From Bolinopsis microptera (Eukaryota; Ctenophora; Tentaculata; Lobata; Bolinopsidae), in contig NC_087079.1 of the NCBI RefSeq assembly GCF_026151205.1, positions 14,198,445 through 14,262,444 on the forward strand: a stretch of 64,000 nt of DNA, written 5' to 3'. Shown here in pieces: positions 8,363-53,722 of the stretch. The number at the start of each line of letters is the position of its first letter. Within the stretch, counting starts at the first letter, position 1. The notes beneath the pieces are model-generated. The model saw only the letters and a list, made by a program, of their open reading frames with translations, did no database searches and was not told the origin of the DNA. Made by a program: the position numbers and the translations under genes.

Positions 8363-8836
8363 AACATCGGTAACTCGGTAATCTGCCGATGCACATCTGG
8401 GGCACACCTCGGGCACACCTGGGGCACAAACTCGGGCACACCTCGGGCACACCTCGGGCACACCTGGGGCACAAAGCACACCTCGGGCACACCTCGGGCA
8501 GAACCACCTGGGGCACACCTCGGGCACACCTCGGGCACATCTCGGGCAAAATTCGGGCATGGTAATTGGGAAACCTTGGGAAAAGAATCTGCATCGGCAG
8601 ATTACCGAGTTACCACATCGGTAACTCGGTAATCTGCCGATGCACATCTGGGGCACACCTCGGGCACACCTGGGGCACAAACTCGGGCACACCTCGGGCA
8701 CACCTCGGGCACACCTGGGGCACAAAGCACACCTCGGGCACACCTCGGGCAGAACCACCTGGGGCACACCTCGGGCACACCTCGGGCACATCTCGGGCAA
8801 AATTCGGGCATGGTAATTGGGAAACCTTGGGAAAAG
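8363..8836. repeat. Two tandem copies of a GC-rich repeat with internal hairpin
   Basis: Two copies of a roughly 230-bp unit (about 8368-8600 and 8618-8837) are nearly identical. Each is built from degenerate GGGCACACCTC/GGGGCACA motifs. Between them lies an inverted repeat: GCATCGGCAGATTACCGAG is followed, after a short loop, by its complement, giving arms of about 25 bp at 8591-8645. The unit interrupts the retrotransposon endonuclease frame without adding a stop codon in the frame of the downstream ORF. Confidence 0.85.
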
Positions 8837-10680
8837 AACCAGAGCAGTTAAGACTTAAAGGTTCGGACGGGTCGATTTTGAGTTCTGAAGATACCGTGGC
8901 TGAAAGGTTTAATGACTATTTCTCGAACATTGCTACGAACATCAAAACTCAGATAAGTGCCCGTCAGACCTTTGACCCTGGGGGGTTCCAGGAATATCTG
9001 CCCACATCCTGTTCTCAATCAATCTATCTCCAGCCTGCTGAAACGATCGAAATTCAAAGAATTATTATTGGTTTGAAGAACAAAGCGACTCTTGACACAA
9101 AAATTGAACCACTAAAAGTAGCCAGTTCCAGCGATAGTTTCCTTGCTATATTAGCAAAAGTTATCAACGAATCCTTAAGTACAGGCATATTTCCACAGGC
9201 CCTTAAAATTGCCAAAGTAACTCCCATCCATAAAGGAGGCTCTAAACTTGACGTTGAAAATTATAGACCCATCTCTCTCTTAGGTTCCTTCTCAAAAATC
9301 TACGAAAAACTGATGCACCGACGTGTCTTAGAATTTCTCAACAAAAATAGTTCTTTATTCGAAAATCAGTATGGGTTCCGTCCAGGAAGGTCCTGTGAAC
9401 ATGCTCTTCTTAATGCACAAAGTACAATTTTACACTCTCTTAGCAAAAACCAAATTTCACTACTGCTATTATTAGATTACAGTAAAGCGTTTGACGTCCT
9501 GGATCATGCTACACTGCTAAATAAATTACAGCACTACGGCATCCGGGGAATAGCTCTAAAGTGGTTTGAGTCATACCTAAGTGATAGAAGCCAATATGTA
9601 GCAATAAATAATTCACATTCGTCCCACAAGCCTATTGTGCATGGTGTTCCACAAGGGAGCATACTAGGTCCCTTACTTTTCGTCATATACATCAACGATC
9701 TTCCCGGTATTTCTAACATGATGGTAAAATTCATACTTTATGCAGACGATGCAAATATAATTATTAACGGTTCCAATGTCCAAGAACTAATGCTAAGGGT
9801 CAACCAACTAACGGAAACATTATCACGGTGGGTTAATAGCAACGGATTAGCACTAAATCTAAAAAAGACGTGTTATATGATTTTCTCGAAAAAGCGCATA
9901 GAACCATCATTGATTAAAGTACAAATAGAAAATACAGTATTAGAACGTAAAACTGAAGCCCGGTTTCTTGGTGTAATTGTAGATGAAAAGCTTAACTGGA
10001 GTAGCCACATAAAAGCACTGAGGAGCAAGATGTCAAGATTTATTGGGGTGATGTACAGGATAAAACATAAACTGCCAATGAAGGCCCGTTTACAGATTTT
10101 CCAAAGTTTTGTTCAGTCCCATTTAAACTTCTGCTCACTTGTCTGGGGATTTGCTTCAAAATCTCTTATAGAATCTCTTTTTGCTAAACAAAAACAAGGT
10201 ATGAGGGCAGTTATGGCCGGAAATGTGAACTACTACTACAAGGACGGAAAACTGCCAGAGCACACAAAACTAGCATTTAAAGAACACGAGGTCTTAACCG
10301 TTCAAGGGGTTATCGTTAAAAACGCACTTATTTTACTGCACAAAGTTCGAAATATGTCTAGTTTGTTACCTAAATCGATTTCAGAACTTTTCCCTCCTAA
10401 CACACCCAAACAAGGAACGACACACGAACAAAACTTAGACTGGTTATCAATTTACTCACAGACTGACCTGAGATCTAGCATCTTTTATAAAGGCCCACTG
10501 CTCGCTATTTCAGAGCATAACACTCGCATTACATGCCCATCCAGTATATTTTCTATCAACATATATAAGAATTCGTCAAAAAAAGTACTACTAGACTTGC
10601 AAAGTGCTGGCTGCAACGACGAATGGCCACCATTTTTACTCCACAACCTACCTGGATTACGTAAATCACAAAGAACATAG
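8566..10680 (+). CDS. Reverse transcriptase of a non-LTR retrotransposon
   Basis: The 704-codon ORF begins inside the tandem repeat, so its first ~85 residues are not genuine. The RT domain follows, with ENYRPISLL, YGFRPGRSCEHAL, DYSKAFDVLDH, GVPQGSILGPLLF and the catalytic YADDANI box in order. After it come the thumb and a C-terminal region with FCSLVWGFASKS, as in CR1/L2/jockey elements. All catalytic residues are present and no frameshift is seen over roughly 600 residues, so this copy is fairly young even though its endonuclease is gone. RTs of this group act on nicked chromosomal DNA in the nucleus. Confidence 0.9.
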   Translation: MGNLGKRICIGRLPSYHIGNSVICRCTSGAHLGHTWGTNSGTPRAHLGHTWGTKHTSGTPRAEPPGAHLGHTSGTSRAKFGHGNWETLGKEPEQLRLKGSDGSILSSEDTVAERFNDYFSNIATNIKTQISARQTFDPGGFQEYLPTSCSQSIYLQPAETIEIQRIIIGLKNKATLDTKIEPLKVASSSDSFLAILAKVINESLSTGIFPQALKIAKVTPIHKGGSKLDVENYRPISLLGSFSKIYEKLMHRRVLEFLNKNSSLFENQYGFRPGRSCEHALLNAQSTILHSLSKNQISLLLLLDYSKAFDVLDHATLLNKLQHYGIRGIALKWFESYLSDRSQYVAINNSHSSHKPIVHGVPQGSILGPLLFVIYINDLPGISNMMVKFILYADDANIIINGSNVQELMLRVNQLTETLSRWVNSNGLALNLKKTCYMIFSKKRIEPSLIKVQIENTVLERKTEARFLGVIVDEKLNWSSHIKALRSKMSRFIGVMYRIKHKLPMKARLQIFQSFVQSHLNFCSLVWGFASKSLIESLFAKQKQGMRAVMAGNVNYYYKDGKLPEHTKLAFKEHEVLTVQGVIVKNALILLHKVRNMSSLLPKSISELFPPNTPKQGTTHEQNLDWLSIYSQTDLRSSIFYKGPLLAISEHNTRITCPSSIFSINIYKNSSKKVLLDLQSAGCNDEWPPFLLHNLPGLRKSQRT

Positions 10681-23100: not shown

Positions 23101-26100
23101 TGGTTTAGTTTCAAGTTTGTAACTTTAAGACGATTTATAATATTCAGATATGCACAGCATAGGTCATAGATTTAAGATTACCTTACAATTGCACTAATTC
23201 TTGAGTTTTGTGAGTACTCCAAATAAGCTATATATAGCATTTTGCTCCTTTATAAAATATTTTATTGTTTTTTTAAATCGGGACATTATTTTTGAAACAC
23301 CCTGTATTTAGAGTACTACTAGATCTTGAAGGTGCAGTTTTAAAACTAAGAATTATAAAGTTAGTACCGTAGTGATTGCGCGGCATTGCGTTTGGGTACG
23401 AGAGACAAGCACAGAACACATTACACTGCTGCTCCAGTAAGCTCATGACTTTGTTCGCCTGGGAGCAGGGTCGGTTACAGTCTTAATTCGTAAAATATCA
23501 ATGATACCTTGTAAAAACTCGACAGATTTTGCAGGGTATCAGTCACATTTTCAATGTTCATAATCTTTAAAACATCTAGAATTCTTGACTTATTAGGAAT
23601 GTAAGGTTTTAATATGATATGACAATTACCAAATCTAATCAGTAACTATGTGCTCCTCTTGGAGATGTTAGGTTGAAATAGACAATCTACGAAAGAGTAA
23701 GTGTCTATTTTGACCTTAAATAGTTGCAAACATGATGTCTATTTCAAACATGAAGCTGAAGGACAGATAATATCCGTACCTGGATATCAGAGGCAAGTTG
23801 TACAGGAAGCCGGGAGGTTAGAAGGATAGAGCAGATAGGATCAGGTTGTATTAACATACTTTCGTGTAGAACCTGCAGTGCTTGCTTCTTCAGCGGCTTT
23901 CGTGTCTCCTGCAAACTATCAGGTCAAATACCAGTGATGGGGGCCGGCCGCTGGGGTGCAGGTGGCCCAGGGGTGTTGAGGCATGTGTACATTGGGAGAT
24001 TTCTTACAGGGTGGCCCAAAAGTGACTACCCACACGCAACCTCTTAATAACTCACGTAATTCGTCTCCAAATTGCACCAAAATTTCAGAGATTATAGATA
24101 TGGGTCAAACTTAGATTTCCTGAAAGTTTCGTAAGCCACGCCCAATTACATTGGGCGTGGCGTGACACTCCCTCTTTTTCACTATTGTCTTCATAAAATG
24201 AGAACACTTTAAGCTAAGAACTCAAAATTTTTTGCACACATTTGGCTTGATAATTGAAAACCTTTCCCAAAGTTTCAAGTTCATTGGTTAAATTATGGCT
24301 GAGTTATGACCATTTCAAAACTCATCGGATACGTGATCCGAGCACTTAGTCAGTGATCTTTGCACTCAATTAGTGATCTCGTCACCCAATCTGATCAAGA
24401 GTAAGGCGTTAGCGTTTATTAATGAGGTTCATTAGGCTTTGATTGGATACCGATAATGACTTGTCGTTTGATCTGAGGGTAGAACTCCCCATTTTCTTTC
24501 TTCAGGTAGACGAACAATCGTTGTTCTGCAGTAAAGGGAGAATAGTGAACCATTTTCTGCGGGGCCCTAAGTTACGCCACTGCTAACAAGCCCTGAAATG
24601 GTGACACCACCATTAATTCGTGTGATAGCGTTTTAGGTGCTGTCAGCTGTATAGGCCGGCCCATAAGCAGGCTGCAACCAATCAAGCGGTGCATGTGAGC
24701 CAAACAGGCCATTAACCAAGTGCAGAGATCACTGACTAAGTGCTCGGATCACGTATCCGATGAGTTTTGAAATGGTCATAACTCAGCCATAATTTAACCA
24801 ATGAACTTTAAACTTTGGGAAAGGTTTTCAATTATCAAGCCAAATGTGTGCAAAAAATTTTGAGTTCTTAGCTTAAAGCGTTCTCATTTTATGAAGACAA
24901 TAGTGAAAAAGAGGGAATGTCACGCCACGCCCAATGTAATTGGGCGTGGCTTACGAAACTTTCAGGAAATCTAAGTTTGACCCATATCTATAATCTCTGA
25001 AATTTTGGTGCAATTTGGAGACGAATTACGTGAGTAATTAAGAGGTTGCGTGTGGGTAGTCACTTTTGGGCCACCCTGTATTTCAGCTGATAAATATTCA
25101 AAATGTATTTTTTGCGCGGCCAATTTATTAAGTTATTTCTGAAAATCAAGTAGGATGATCACAGTAGGATGATCAAGTAGGATGATCACAGTATTTCATC
25201 TCTCACCAGTTGATAGTACTCCACAAGAGTAAGCAGAGGCTCATATTTCACAGACTGTAGCACTTGTATTACCACTTTAGGGTTAGCGTTAGTTAGCAGT
25301 CCCAGTAGGTCAGTTAACATTGTACTGATTTCCTCAGTGTCATCTTTACAGCTCCAACCTGGCGGTGGTAAAAGGTAATGAGATAAAACACAGTGTTTGT
25401 TTCCCACTGGTATCAATAATGGATATGTAAAATTTAAATTGCCCTTGTCACAGCAGCTCTCCGTCAAAGTATCTATTATAGAATGTAGGTTGACTAATTA
25501 TAATCAGGAATTTGCTGACATACATGGGAGTTGATAAATAATCAAAAGTAGTACATTCGGCAAATTAAAATTACCATTAGCGATACCACAGGACAGTTTT
25601 ACTTTTTTATAGATTGATTTGGAATACAAATTCAGGAAAGCTTTGGAGACTTCAAAATACAAATCCAACTTTATTTTTTCTTGATTTTTCACACCTCGCT
25701 GTTGATCATCCTCCGTCAGAGCGATCAGTTGTTCGAAAAGCTGCTCCAATTTCAAACTATCCACACTGTTGCTCTGGAGATCTGCCTGATAAAACATGAA
25801 CGATCATTCTAGAGCGAACCCCTATTTTCGGCAGTCGGTCGAGTGACAGACAGGAATATTAAAGAGGAAGCCAACCAACATTAATACTCTCGATCTCTGA
25901 TACCAATAACCAAGTGTTCCGTAGAAATAAAGTACAATTATGTGGGTAGTATTCAAGATAGTATCAACTTATCAATTGATGATCTTCATTTGGACCGTGA
26001 CTTGTAAAACGTGACTTGTACAGCGTTTCGAGCAGTATTAATATGATATGGTGTTATTAAGTGCCAGAAGAATGCAGTGACATATGTATTTGTATGTACA

Positions 26101-29100
26101 AATAATGGGCATTATTTTGTGACAGGCACTTGTGAAAAGCATAAACCACCTCTAGTGAACGTATAAGTGGGCTGGATAAGTGAAAGAGAAATCGAAAGTG
26201 AAAGTGAAAATGAAAGTGAAACAAACCTCCTGATTAAGAGCTCTACACAATCCTGCTAGCTTTTCATCCCAATCTGGGTACTCCTCACTTAGTCTTTCTA
26301 ACACTGTCTGTACTATATTCTTACTGAAATAGACTTAATTTGGAAACATTTCCTTGTGTTTCATAGAATTGTTGTTGGTTTAAAAGTATAAATTCACGAA
26401 ATTCTTCTTAAGAGCATCTCTTTTTAGACAGTACCTAGTCTGGTACTTGACTCCATTCCTCCGTACACCTTCCACAAGGCTACTCGATATTCTGACACAC
26501 TCCGCTTTTTTGCCTTTCTGCATTAGGGACGGTCCTGAGGCACAGTATACTTGAGTAAATTATATGATAATTTACATATTTATAAAAGTGTTATATATTA
26601 TGTAACACTTTTTAAATAAATAGATTATCATCATGATATAATCGAATAGTATAATATACATATATAACTTACATATGTATATTATATTATTTGATTACAT
26701 CATGATGAGCTCTGCTTGAGATTATAAAGCTCCAAAATTGATTCAGCTAAATGTGTAAAAAGGATCGGGCTTCATATATAAAAATAAGATTAATACATAA
26801 TGAATTTAATTTTAAAGAAATGTATATTAAATGAGAATGACTCAAAAGGATACTAAAAGAGTGAAGTTAAATTAAACGAGAAATTATTAATAGTCTGGAA
26901 TATATAACATAAATTATTCAACAAGCTTTTTGAACATTTTTAAACGATTAGCAGAACAATTGTAACAGCTTTTATCAGAAATCTTATTGAACTTATAAGC
27001 TTTTACAACTTGCCAGCATGCGTATTTTTAAACAGACATGCAGAATACCTTTGGAGCCTCCTCCTTTGCGATCCAACGTCCTATCAATTTGAAACAGCCT
27101 TGCTCTAATCTGATCAGGGGAAGCAGGAACCAAGTCCTTTCTGTCTCCCGAGCTGGGGATCAGCAAGTTGTCCTCATCGTCCAGGAACATTTTACTGAAT
27201 CTGATATCGTCTAGTTCATTAAGAAACTGGTCCACTTGCCGGTTAAATGCCTCTGTGTCATGCAGAATACCTTTAGAGGGCGGAATGTTCTCTTTAGAAC
27301 TGTCAATAATAAGAGCTGTCTGGGTACTTCCTCCGAAGCTATTGTTGGCTTTTTCTGAACCCGGCTTTATTCCACTAGTCTGGGTCGCTGGAAGTTGTGA
27401 TCGGCGAGCTTTAAGCGGTCGACTGTAAGGACTTTTTGAGAGCTCGAACGGATTGAAAACGCTCAACTGTTCACTGGACAAACCGACAGATTTGCTGATT
27501 TCTTGATACACCGGCAGATTCTTAATCACTTCAACTTCAACAGATCTCCCAGAATTCCCAGTAGGACCAGTAAGACCAGTAGAGTAGATGCCTCCATCAG
27601 GACACTTAACACAGGAACATGAGGAGCACGTAAAGGTAAGATCAGTAGTGCTCGTCTCCGCTACCTTAAACTTAGGCTCCCGGTCAACTCTCTTAGATAT
27701 CGGAGAAGCGAAGACTGTCCTGAAGAACTGATGTGCATCTGTGGGAGCCCGACGATGTCGCTGGACCTCTTGGTAAGTAGTATCTGCCCCCTCGTAGAAC
27801 ACATTGTCATCATGATCTCCTTCGTGTAGGACGGACATGTTCTGAGCGGCAGACAAAGAGTTGGTGCACGTGTAACTGTCTAGTTGTGTGGATGTCTCTG
27901 TGGAACCAACAGAGCTGGTGAGGGAGACGTCCACTATTTTACCCGTTTTAAAGTCGTATCTGGCGGCTCTGATACTCCGCTGCTGTTTTCTTGATCTGTA
28001 TCTGGACGAAGGCTTGGACCGGCGTGTTTTATGCGGTGTGGACTGTCGGATTGAATCATATAAAATCACTGGCTCAGGTCTTTCAACCAGTTTGCCACTT
28101 TTATTGGGGCTTTGTTCGGGATTTAAAAGGTAAACTAAGCTGTAATCTTCCCTGACAAATTGTGACAATTCCTGTGCTGAGAGTTTGTTAAGTGCTTCAC
28201 ACACAATTGTTTGCTGCTGGTCAAATGGTAGCTCTGAAAACTGCACAGCATAATCAGTCGAATCATAACCCCCAGCTGCAGCTTCACAACAATCAGTACT
28301 AGTAAGATCAGCTTGATTTGTGGTGACGTCACAGGATTGTTTGGTGACGTCATCATCGAATAGTTTGTTACCTGAAGTGCGGTCAATGGTGGATGCACGA
28401 GGGATGGAGCTGATGTCTGCTTTGACGAGTGGAGTCTGGTGACTTTGTGTCCTGGAGAGCGGGGGCATATCTCGACTGAAATAATATTGGGGGTTTCAGA
28501 ACTGTTGCAGGTTACTAGTTAGACGACTCCTGGAGTTGATTGTTATGGATAAATACGTTCATTCGTTTTCAAATTACAATCAATTTTGATCTTTTCAAAA
28601 TTTCAATCAATTTTGATCTTTTCAATTAAAATTTGATAAATTTACCTATTATCATCCACACTGTCAGAGAACAAATTTGAAAACCAAGAACCCATCAACT
28701 CAATTATTCAGCAGATAAAAAAAGAAAAATACATAAACAGAATGTGAGCCAAGTGTAATGATTTCCATAAAGTGAGCGCAGTGTAACCATGGTTACGCAG
28801 TGTAACGCTAACTTCACAGAAACCAGCACTGGCCTGGATAAAGAGTTTAAAGACATGTAACTTACTCCTCATCAGTGTACCTTAAAGAGCTGAAATCAAA
28901 ATCGTATCCTCATTTGTATTTCAGGTGCAAATAGCATAAAATTGTAAAAACAAGTTTACATTCAATACCAAATAACTAGTGAAGTCCACTATACCTTACC
29001 TCCAAACCAGAAAAGTCTGTTTCTTACCTAATAACGATATCAGGTGATTCTATGGGAGTATGGACAGTGACCTCTCCTTCAGTTGATCCGTTCATTATCT

Positions 29101-32100
29101 TGAGGAATTTAGCAGGAACTTGACCCCACTTTCCGGAGTCCGACCGCACTGTCCACCATTGGACATCGTTCTTTGCTGGAGAATTACTTTTTATACGACC
29201 TCAGTATTTTCTTGCGAACTGTATTTTGTACCATACAATTATTCAGTTTTTAGATCTCATTTGAAAGACCAACAATAAAACAGGTATTTTAGAAATAAAA
29301 TGCACTGTATAATTCACATATTGCACTTTAAGTGTTACATTAACCCTGCAGCAATGTGCTTGATTTTAGTTAGCTTACCTATGACCGATACAACCTGTCC
29401 CTCGTATATTTTGAGTTGGCCCGAAGTTGCTCCCTCGAAATCTTGTCTCACTACTACTCTTGCACAGCTGTCTAGCTGAAAAGTAACACTTTAGCTACCC
29501 TCGCGTGTTCAGGGGGTTAAGTGGTTAATGTCTTAAACAATCTGCAATACAATGTTCCAAAGAAAATGTTGAGTATCTCGTTAGTTCGTTAGGTAAATAA
29601 GTTACTTAGATAAGTTTAAGTTTTAAGAAAATATCTCACGTCAACTTTTACGAGGTAACCGTTAGCTGGCAGAAAGCCAGCTTTTCCATGTATTCTGCCT
29701 CGGTGCCAATTGGCACTTGAACTCGCTTTGGTGACCTAACAATAATAACTTATAATTCTGCTGTGTTGTGTTTTAAAGCTTCCAGTTTAAAACAACATCA
29801 ACACTATTCTATTGGAATTATTAAGTAACACTATCTAATCGAGAGTCGAGACTTTGTGATTTAACCTTTTAGCAGGGTATCGTCACAACGATGTGTTCCA
29901 CTTGTTCGATATTATGAATAAAAGTATGAGGAACACAAAACTTCCTAAGTCTTGTAATAACTCTGCCACACAACCCCTTACTCTGCCACACAAACCCCTT
30001 ACTCTGCCACACAAACCCTTACTTTGCCACACAAACCCTTACTCTGCCACACAAACCCTTACTCTGCCACACAAACCCTTACTCTGCCACACAACCCCTT
30101 ACTCTGCCACACAAACCTTACTCTGCCACACAACCCCTTACTCTGCCACACAACCCCTTACTCTGCCACACAACCCCTTACTCTGCCACACAAACCTTTA
30201 CTCTGCCACACAACCCCTTACTCTGCCACACAACCCCTTACTCTGCCACACAACCCCTTACTCTGCCACACAAACCCTTACTCTGCCACACAAACCCTTA
30301 CTCTGCCACACAAACCCTTACTCTGCCACACAAACCCTTACTCTGCCACACAACCCCTTACTCTGCCACACAACCCCTTACTCTGCCACACAAACCCTTA
30401 CTCTGCCACACAACCCTTACTCTGCCACACAACCCCTTACTCTGCCACACAACCCCTTACTCTGCCACACAACCCTACTCATCCACACAACCCTTACTCT
30501 GCCACACAACCCCTTACTCTGCCACACAACCCCTTACTCTGCCACACAAACCCTTACTCTGCCACACAAACCCCTTACTCTGCCACACAAACCCTTACTC
30601 TGCCACACAAACCCCTTACTCTGCCACACAAACCCTTACTCTGCCACACAACCCCTTACTCTGCCACACAACCCTTACTCTGCCACACAACCCTTACTCT
30701 GCCACACAATCCCTTACTCTGCCCCCTTACTCTGCCACACAACCCCTTACTCTGCCACACAACCCCTTACTCTGCCACACAAACCCTTACTCTGCCACAC
30801 AACCCCTTACTCTGCTACACAAACCCCTTACTCTGCCACACAAACCCCTTACTCTGCCACACAAACCCTTACTCTGCCACACAACCCCTTACTCTGCCAC
30901 ACAACTCCTTACTCTGCCACACAAACCCTTACTCTGCCACACAGTCCCTTACTCTGCCACACAGTCCCTTACTCTGCCACACAACCCCTTACTCTGCCAC
31001 ACAACCCCTTACTCTGCCACACAAACCCTTACTCTGCCACACAGTCCCTTACTCTGCCACACAACCCCTTACCTCAACTATTTGGTCCTTCTTGAAAGAG
31101 AGGCAATGTTGCTGGTTGCACTGAAAGTCGTGTAGAGCTGAGTAAAGCCCAGACATTTCATCAATACGATCTGTAATGTTAATTAGATAATTAATTACAC
31201 TTACACTAGATCCAAGATAGTCTTAGTTTATAGCTACCTAAGTTTATGGTGACTGTACTGTTAAAAGTTAACGTAAACATAAAGGACCTGTAATAACTTC
31301 AAAAGAGGCCGGCTTAACTCCAGAAAGTTTTTTACATTCGCAGACTTGGCAAGGACAAACAAACAGCGCTCTAACACTAATAACCAGCAAAACAGGTACA
31401 ACTGAGTACAGACTTTTAAATCCAAGACTGAATGAATCGAAGTTTAACTTCATACATGTACGTAACACAGAAAAGTAAAAATAGCAAAACGCTACATTCT
31501 CTTTAATCTCAGCATATCAAAAGAGACAAAACAGAACAATCATAATATCACAACAAAACACCATTGCAATCTGAGATGAACAGGACAAAATAGCACTTAA
31601 ACCGATAACCCGAGTGTACTGCTGGCCAGTATACAACTCCAATAATTACGTCACACACAACAACACGATCACACAAAGACACAATGAGAGAGAATGAGCT
31701 CCCGAAGGAATGTGAGCTCCTTTTCTAATATATTCTCAGTGTGCGTGTATGCAAATAATAATATTCAGTTTTGTTTACGTGTGAATGTTGGGACTGTGTT
31801 GGCGGGAAATAGAGTCTGTGTGGTTAATTAATTTGTTATTAATTACGTGGATTTACGTAAAATTGATTAGTAAGTACACAAACTAATGTCGATTAAAATT
31901 TAAATGGTACCGCAAAAAATCGGGTAGATTGAAATTTGAACATTAGCAGGAGCATTTAAACATAAGATGACCCCACGAAAAAATGTAATCCTAACAGTAA
32001 CGTAACGAAATCTGTGTGATATTACGTATTTCATATGTGAGATAATTCTAATTTGAAATAGTTACAGAGAAGCGCATAAACTATTTGTTAACATATGATA

Positions 32101-52305: not shown

Positions 52306-53722
52306 TCTCGAGAGTAACAATTATCACACTTATTTCAAGATATATCCGCTTCTGATTGGAGCTAAGCGCTCATCTTGAGCATTATTATGGTCAGAATTAT
52401 CACATTGAGTGGGGTAGAGCATGGTTTTAAAGTCTTCAGACTTCAGGTTGTTGAGTTATTTGGTCAGATCCCATTTTTACGCTCTCGCGAGTAGCAATTG
52501 ATGTACTTATTTCAAGATATCTCAGCTTCTGATTGGAGTGTAACGCTCATCTTAGGCATTGAAATGGTCAGAATCATCATATTGAGTGGGGTGGAGCATG
52601 CCGCATGGTTTCAAAGTCTTCAGACTTCAGGTTGTTGAGTTATTAGTTCAGATCCCATTTTTACGCTCTCGCGAGTAGCGATTGATGCTACTGATATATC
52701 AGCTTCTGATTGGAGCTAAGCGTTCATCTTGGGCATTGAAATGGTCAGAATTATCACATTGAGTGGGGTAGGGCGTGGTTTCAAAGTCTTCAGACTTCAG
52801 GTTTTTGAATTATTAGGTTAAAACATATTTTTACACTCTTGCGAGTAACGATTGACACACTTATTACAAGATATCGCAGCTTCTGATTGAAGCTAAGTGC
52901 TTATCATGGGCATTGAAATGGTCAGTATGGTCATATTAAGTGGGGTAAAGCATGTTCCTAGTGCTAGAGGTTTTAGTGAAATTTTACTGATATTTTACTG
53001 ATATTTCTTGGCAAACAACTTTTTCCTGACGATTAATTACAGTTCATCCAATAAATATTTTCAACATTGCAGTAACCATTCTTGCGAGAGCATAAAAATA
53101 GGGTTTAACCTAATAATTTAATAACCTGAAGTCTAAAGATTTTAAAACCATGCTCGATTCTACTTAATTTGATATTTTAATGCCCATGATGAACGCTTAT
53201 CTCCACAACTCCACTCAGAAGCTGAGATATCTTGAAATAAGTGCATCAATCGCTATTCGGGGGAGTGTAAAAAGGGATCTGACCTAATAACTCAACAACC
53301 TGAAGTTTGAAGACTTTGAAACCATGCTCTACCCAAATCAATATGATGATTCTGACCATTTTAATGCCCAAGATGAGCGCTTAGCTCCAATCAGAAGCGG
53401 AGATATCTTGAAATAAGTGCATCAATCGCTACTCGCGAGAGCGTAAAAATGGGATCTGACCAAATAACTCAACAACCTGAAGTCTGAAGACTTTGAAACC
53501 ATGCTCTACCCAACTCAATATGATGATTCTGACCATTTCAATGCCCAAGATGAACGCTTAGCTCTAATCAGAAGCTGATAAATCTTGAAATAAATGCATC
53601 AATCGTACTCACGAGAGCGTAAAAATGGGATTTGACCTAATAACTCAACAAGTACAACCTATAGCTCCAATCAGAAGCGGAGATATCTTGTAATCTTGAA
53701 ATAAGTGTGATAATTGTAATGA
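52306..53722. mobile_element. Foldback element built of ~170-bp tandem units
   Basis: Four direct units (each with CTTCTGATTGGAG, GAGTGGGGTAGAGCATG, CTTCAGACTTCAGGTTGTTG and ACGCTCTCGCGAGTA) run from 52306 to about 52980. Four inverted units run back from about 53040 to 53722. Outer ends match: AACAATTATCACACTTATTTC at the left against its complement at the right. Units differ by scattered substitutions. No ORF is present. This is a large composite inverted repeat. Confidence 0.85.

Follow-up and report, generated by a model that had tools for sequence, protein, structure and literature searches.

The array intron of a SPIN90 gene

The gene at the centre of this analysis lies on the minus strand of the window (the whole stretch of DNA analysed, 64,000 nt), and its model is in frame over seven exons, including across an intron that is filled for the most part by a 20-nt minisatellite. 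The first-pass annotation had called it SPIN90 (NCKIPSD, NCK-interacting protein with SH3 domain). That identity is borne out by the match of the spliced 3' part of the gene to NCKIPSD chains in the PDB (4e-22), together with the SH3 domain. Both parts by which SPIN90/NCKIPSD is recognized, an N-terminal SH3 domain and the SPIN90 C-terminal domain, were found, the C-terminal part by way of the PDB match; Pfam returns two SH3 stretches in the model and, for the C-terminal piece of the gene, no SPIN90-specific family. The features of the array intron and of its surroundings are:

31073..31156, minus strand: upstream exon, coding part; MSGLYSALHDFQCNQQHCLSFKKDQIVE, first half of the SH3 domain
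29736..31072, minus strand: intron of 1337 nt, phase 0, of which the array consequently makes up 83%
29962..31072, minus strand: 20-nt minisatellite, 56 units, consensus GTAAGGGGTTGTGTGGCAGA, 22 exact copies
31053..31072, minus strand: first unit; its GT is the predicted splice donor GAG/GTAAGG
29736..29961, minus strand: non-repetitive remainder of the intron, with acceptor TTATTATTGTTAG
29640..29735, minus strand: downstream exon; VTKASSSANWHRGRIHGKAGFLPANGYLVKVD, second half of the SH3 domain
28866..28889, minus strand: micro-exon of 24 nt, deduced from the frame; donor GGA/GTAAGT
28646-28660, minus strand: in-frame SPIN90 micro-exon of 15 nt, deduced from the frame
28566-28625, 26178-26221 and 25145-25193, minus strand: further short SPIN90 intron arrays found by Tandem Repeats Finder (TRF)

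When the translations of the two exons flanking the array are joined, they match Pfam SH3_1 (2.6e-10, residues 7-52), with the exon junction falling after residue 28. Protein homology is what places the borders of the array intron and its putative genuine donor at 31072. The name "intron 2", used in the first-pass annotation, would presuppose a non-coding first exon. The coding stretch of the upstream exon is 84 nt long and ends ...ATAGTTGAG at 31073; this last exonic base directly adjoins array base 31072, which is intron position +1. At the other end, the non-repetitive remainder of the intron starts GTTATTAC and has only its GT in common with the start of the repeat unit.

Two further features of the gene are noted in passing. 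An out-of-frame ATG at 31161 (minus strand), 5 nt upstream of the start codon of SPIN90, begins a frame of 27 codons, closed by a TAG just before the donor. An inverted repeat at 24005-25080, with 371-nt arms that are 98% complementary and 334 nt apart, occupies part of a SPIN90 intron and looks like a palindromic transposon.

Structure and extent of the array

Read unit by unit, the array spans 29962-31072 of the minus strand as 56 units of approximately 20 nt (1111 bp); the TRF call is 29960-31072 (period 20, 56.1 copies, 93% matches, score 1866). Head-to-tail units of tens of bases, with variants among them, are what is generally understood by a minisatellite, and that is what is found: 44 units are 20 nt long, five are 21, five are 19, one is 18 and one is 13; fifteen have GGGTTTG replacing GGGGTTG, and the remainder beyond the exact copies are small variants. 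Fourteen unit types can be told apart, and on either side the array passes without a break into its flanking sequence. The edge at the exon is sharp: the exon ends ...TTGAG and the unit ends ...GCAGA, mismatched at five of the five final positions. That the array begins exactly at the exon border, as the first-pass annotation had it, is agreed upon by the sequence, by TRF and by the unit-by-unit reading; its estimate of "about 54" donor-like sites is also right, GTAAG opening 54 of the 56 units. The coordinates that it gave (29970-31073) are correct to one base on the side of the exon; on the other side the array extends 8 bases beyond the stated end, to 29962.

The array looks private to the SPIN90 locus, to judge by searches of the assembly. 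A 124-nt query has the SPIN90 array as its sole match. When as many as 3 mismatches are tolerated, the 20-mer occurs at 56 sites assembly-wide, 44 of them inside the array and the remaining 12 all at 3 mismatches, while the reversed control pattern at the same tolerance occurs at 14. A dispersed satellite or a mobile element as the source of the array is rejected because no other close copies were found in the assembly by a DNA search that skips very common words. Chance is excluded for an array of 56 units; that it abuts the exon to the base could be coincidence.

Open frames of 400 aa (29893-31095) and 366 aa (30024-31124) cross the array on the plus strand; these probably arise mechanically, because the 20-nt unit lacks stops in the frames concerned.

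Donor strength and pairing with U1

The organism's own U1 genes have ATACTTACCTG as their 5' end (three of the ten assembly matches were read). In silico, the first donor forms seven contiguous base pairs with it (-10.1 kcal/mol); 52 of the 55 inner units reach -7.9 kcal/mol with the A that stands between CAG and GTAAG (position -1) bulged, and the other three only -4.7 to -5.0 kcal/mol. Position weights give the first donor a score of 9.38 vs 4.71 for the inner consensus. The exon-proximal donor is, on these computations, the strongest site of the array, and among 33 predicted donors (the sample is described below) it ranks second by leave-one-out position weights and is tied for second by U1 duplex energy. 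A U1 duplex as weak as that of the inner units, or weaker, is found for 20 of the 32 other donors; position weights as low as those of the inner consensus, or lower, are found for five of these 32, the other 27 scoring higher.

What does the base at -1 contribute? It is G in 24 of the 33 donors and A, C and T in three each; one of the three with A is the donor of the 24-nt SPIN90 micro-exon, which resembles the inner array units in this position. Since nine of the 33 lack -1G, and three of them have A, G at -1 is dispensable in this genome, and the exonic GAG would favour the first site without making the inner sites impossible. Use of any of the 55 inner sites would lead to a stop codon (54 at codon index 35, one at 63), and all 55 would truncate the protein. 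The proposal of the first-pass annotation that the GTAAG of each unit could pair with U1 is upheld by the duplexes computed with the 5' end of this organism's U1. Its suggestion that the array is simply tolerated because only the first site follows GAG fares less evenly: the first donor is indeed the strongest, but the nine donors that do without -1G weaken the argument.

If the inner donors mattered, selection might be expected to show in the units. Across all 56, GTAAG is kept in 54, the GGG that follows GTAA in 52, and the tail GTGTGGCAGA in 52. The other unit positions are preserved almost as well as GTAAG, so that no selection on the inner donors is visible, and the notion of the array as a trap for U1, also raised earlier, finds no support in these counts. 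(A note on the alignment: gaps within the G run can be placed otherwise than in the automatic version, in which ten of 13 variant types touch unit positions 6-10, five touch positions 1-5 and four touch positions 11-20.) As far as the units themselves can tell, their variation fits slippage and the shared descent of a few unit types rather than donor maintenance. A strong fold, together with G runs as possible splicing enhancers, may nevertheless make the array something other than neutral: the first 220 nt (20 of them exonic) fold better than all 200 dinucleotide shuffles, with a z of -7.56 that tandem repetition alone inflates. There is no sign of a G-quadruplex: for the first 200 nt, the computed folding energy is the same (-53.5) whether or not one is allowed.

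Arrays in other introns

Is contact with a donor special to this array, or do arrays in this genome generally grow from donors? The sample bearing on this question comprises 33 introns: 21 deduced from myosin hits and 12 of SPIN90, the array intron included. (The myosin introns come from 57 of 73 myosin hits, the others lying outside the fetched stretches except for two inside, one of which is full of stops; 37 exon pairs passed the order filter and 16 were dropped for want of a clean junction. The best kinase matches are mostly single uninterrupted frames and were left out of the sample.) TRF arrays with a score of at least 36 are present in 17 of the 33 introns, 19 arrays in total. Their positions do not depart significantly from an even spread over the introns (KS p 0.50), nor do those of the 15 arrays scoring at least 50 (KS p 0.31); the largest KS deviation is on the donor side. 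Five of the 19 start no more than 20 nt from the donor and one ends no more than 20 nt from the acceptor. General growth of arrays from donors is accordingly not supported by these 33 introns, which show no significant donor bias. With the 18 arrays other than that of SPIN90 placed uniformly, a start at exactly +1 is expected 0.0016 times per intron; at an assumed 50,000-100,000 introns this would come to approximately 80-160 exact starts genome-wide, with 1-kb arrays much rarer.

SPIN90 itself may be a different matter. Of its arrays with a score of at least 50, four of five (the main array included) start within 20 nt of a donor, vs one of ten in the myosin introns; they lie 0, 20, 5 and 13 nt downstream of the donors at 31072, 28645, 26226 and 25206. 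Such a cluster on the donor side runs contrary to what neutrality predicts, in a small, post hoc comparison.

Across the genome, AGGTAAG with GTAAG following it at 5-22 nt has 2213 matches and the reverse order 1752, while the same patterns read backward have 850 and 836. The first two counts are swollen by arrays, with the composition of introns and exons uncontrolled, and no conclusion is drawn from them. Among five repeat loci taken from the first 100 of these matches listed, inspection by eye showed none whose sense-strand start coincides with the end of a coding exon (at one of these, L005, 500 nt upstream were covered).

Several other repeats were noticed. At locus L007 (717-790, plus strand), a 13-nt array of AACTTACCTCCTA reaches, by eye, the acceptor CAG of an intron that interrupts a C2H2 zinc finger, a 3' splice-site counterpart of the SPIN90 donor array. 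At locus L004 (831-1731, minus strand), a 22-nt array of 41 copies seems, again by eye, to start 12 nt inside the donor ATGGAG/GTAACC. Locus L006 (886-1004, minus strand) has 56 nt duplicated in tandem, with DYKSLPDSLT-APPYD encoded by the copies; the duplication may include a splice acceptor and is possibly a border-spanning "mirage" of the kind described below. Locus L005 (1016-8496) is a 57-nt satellite of approximately 131 copies whose consensus unit contains AGGTAAG at two places; it stops no more than 5 bases short of where the fetched stretch ends. In the window, a reverse transcriptase frame at 8566-10680 (RVT_1, 9.2e-38) overlaps a tandem region of the GCACACCTCGG type (8364-10680, plus strand) that has a 251-nt duplication, and two arrays of a 177-nt unit, approximately 86% alike, lie in opposite orientations at 52306-52954 and 53209-53651.

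Comparison with known systems

The nearest relative is the human gene IFI6 (6-16, G1P3), whose minisatellite is described as providing multiple splice donor sites (Turri, Cuin, Porter 1995), two downstream repeat units being used as donors (PMC4526556). Like that repeat, to go by its published title and short description, the SPIN90 array has units with donor sequences and holds the genuine donor, as placed by homology; as far as those descriptions of IFI6 go, the two would appear to be of the same kind. They part company in that the downstream units of IFI6 are reported to be used, with three mRNA species, whereas the inner SPIN90 units are predicted sites and weaker than the first.

The "mirage" minisatellites of amphioxus, in Adh3 and in the globin genes BflGb6 and BflGb9, span exon-intron borders; many of them have AG/GT splice signals, regular splicing is suggested to be undisturbed, and that of BflGb6 has 6 and 3 units in two haplotypes (PMC3087553). 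The SPIN90 array is likewise a tandem repeat at an exon-intron border with splice signals. The mirage unit, in the account available, spans the border and holds exon sequence, however, while the SPIN90 unit starts at +1 without exonic bases, as the five mismatches between TTGAG and GCAGA make plain. Internal tandem repeats at exon-intron boundaries in human segmental duplications have been linked to putative novel introns (PMC2812944). The SPIN90 array resembles these as summarized there, being a minisatellite that touches an exon border and of a kind able to change gene structure, but they belong to recent paralogs with putative novel introns and the SPIN90 case is one without demonstrated intron gain. 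A precedent for the pairing rather than for the repeat is the donor of SMN2 exon 7, where -1A is bulged in the U1 duplex; bulge registers are linked to the choice of alternative donors (PMC9311317). The CAG-A-GTAAG of the inner units, here a repeat within an intron, is predicted to pair in the same way. Within the literature on donor-bearing or border repeats, mostly as represented by titles and the beginnings of abstracts, no report of the SPIN90 array was found.

Origin of the array and use of its donors

The array is probably an ordinary, locus-specific intronic minisatellite that grew from the start of the intron, is mostly neutral, and leaves the first donor dominant; donor seeding, neutrality and use of the first donor are all three what we infer. 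The course of events might have been as follows: 1) The first 20 nt of the intron would have been duplicated in tandem by slippage or by end-joining, the latter via the 2-nt GT common to the unit start and the right flank. 2) The array would then have been enlarged by unequal exchange or slippage into tolerant intron sequence. 3) The inner units would be weaker sites whose duplex with U1 contains a bulged A, and dominance would stay with the donor next to the exon. Copies that start at +1 take no exonic bases with them, which is why GCAGA and not TTGAG precedes GTAAG in the inner units, and the right flank of the array starts with GT like the unit, as a simple tandem duplication would leave it. 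Alternatively, an older intronic array might have been brought up to the exon by deletion of the original donor, with the GTAAG of its first unit adopted in its place; the exact border would then have been imposed by selection for a working donor. Donor capture of this sort leaves the same sequence as seeding; it accounts for the exact join at GTAAG without coincidence, and for the lack of exonic sequence within the units, at the price of an extra deletion event. The GT common to the right flank and the unit start fits duplication, but two nucleotides are weak evidence. Capture is a possible but rather unlikely origin, and seeding by duplication is preferred as the likely one, without proof.

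Whichever origin applies, some inner units may be used as alternative donors, the resulting truncated or decay-targeted transcripts tuning the dose of SPIN90. Such use has its precedents in the downstream units of IFI6 (PMC4526556) and in the association of bulge registers with alternative donor choice (PMC9311317), to the extent that these are described, and it is compatible with the many other donors of this genome (20 of 32) whose U1 duplexes are no stronger, and with the -1A donor within SPIN90 itself; but the inner consensus falls below 27 of the 32 by position weights, and every one of the 55 sites would yield a truncated protein, which makes the proposal a doubtful one. Splicing can be enhanced by U1 bound downstream of a donor and by intronic G triplets. 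The array could in principle be a functional element of that type, an intronic enhancer or a U1 landing platform that helps the SH3 exon to be spliced or prevents premature polyadenylation: for 52 of its 55 inner units a duplex of -7.9 kcal/mol with the organism's U1 is predicted, and GGG directly follows GTAA in 52 of 56. The real donor is, however, already among the strongest of the 33, and conservation of GTAAG does not clearly exceed that of other unit positions, so that a function of this sort is quite improbable. Its most specific version, a retained U1 platform in which approximately fifty bulge-register sites reinforce the first donor and protect the transcript against early polyadenylation, cutting at these sites being prevented by the bulge, is the least probable of the readings considered here; if it were true, array length would tune SPIN90 output. 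Finally, the array may be real and its unit number or its contact with the exon distorted in the assembly. Tandem arrays are prone to such errors, and an aberrantly assembled boundary repeat is among the amphioxus cases as reported (PMC3087553), but 14 distinct unit types and contiguous flanks make a distortion here very improbable. The favoured reading remains that of a mostly neutral minisatellite which probably arose from the first nucleotides of the intron.

Implications

Otherwise ordinary repeat biology, the array offers a natural test of how donors compete. A single strong site is followed by 55 near-identical weaker ones, and the first differs from the inner donors mainly in the sequence preceding GTAAG. 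Counts of splice junctions along the array would measure how far the authentic donor is protected by its position and by its exonic context. The host is probably a ctenophore, perhaps a lobate one: a receptor frame has the ligand-binding chain labelled ML032222a (Mnemiopsis) among its matches to kainate- and AMPA-type receptors, though several of these rank higher (among the best 60 of 268). If the host is indeed a ctenophore, minisatellites at exon borders extend far outside the chordate cases cited above (human and amphioxus).
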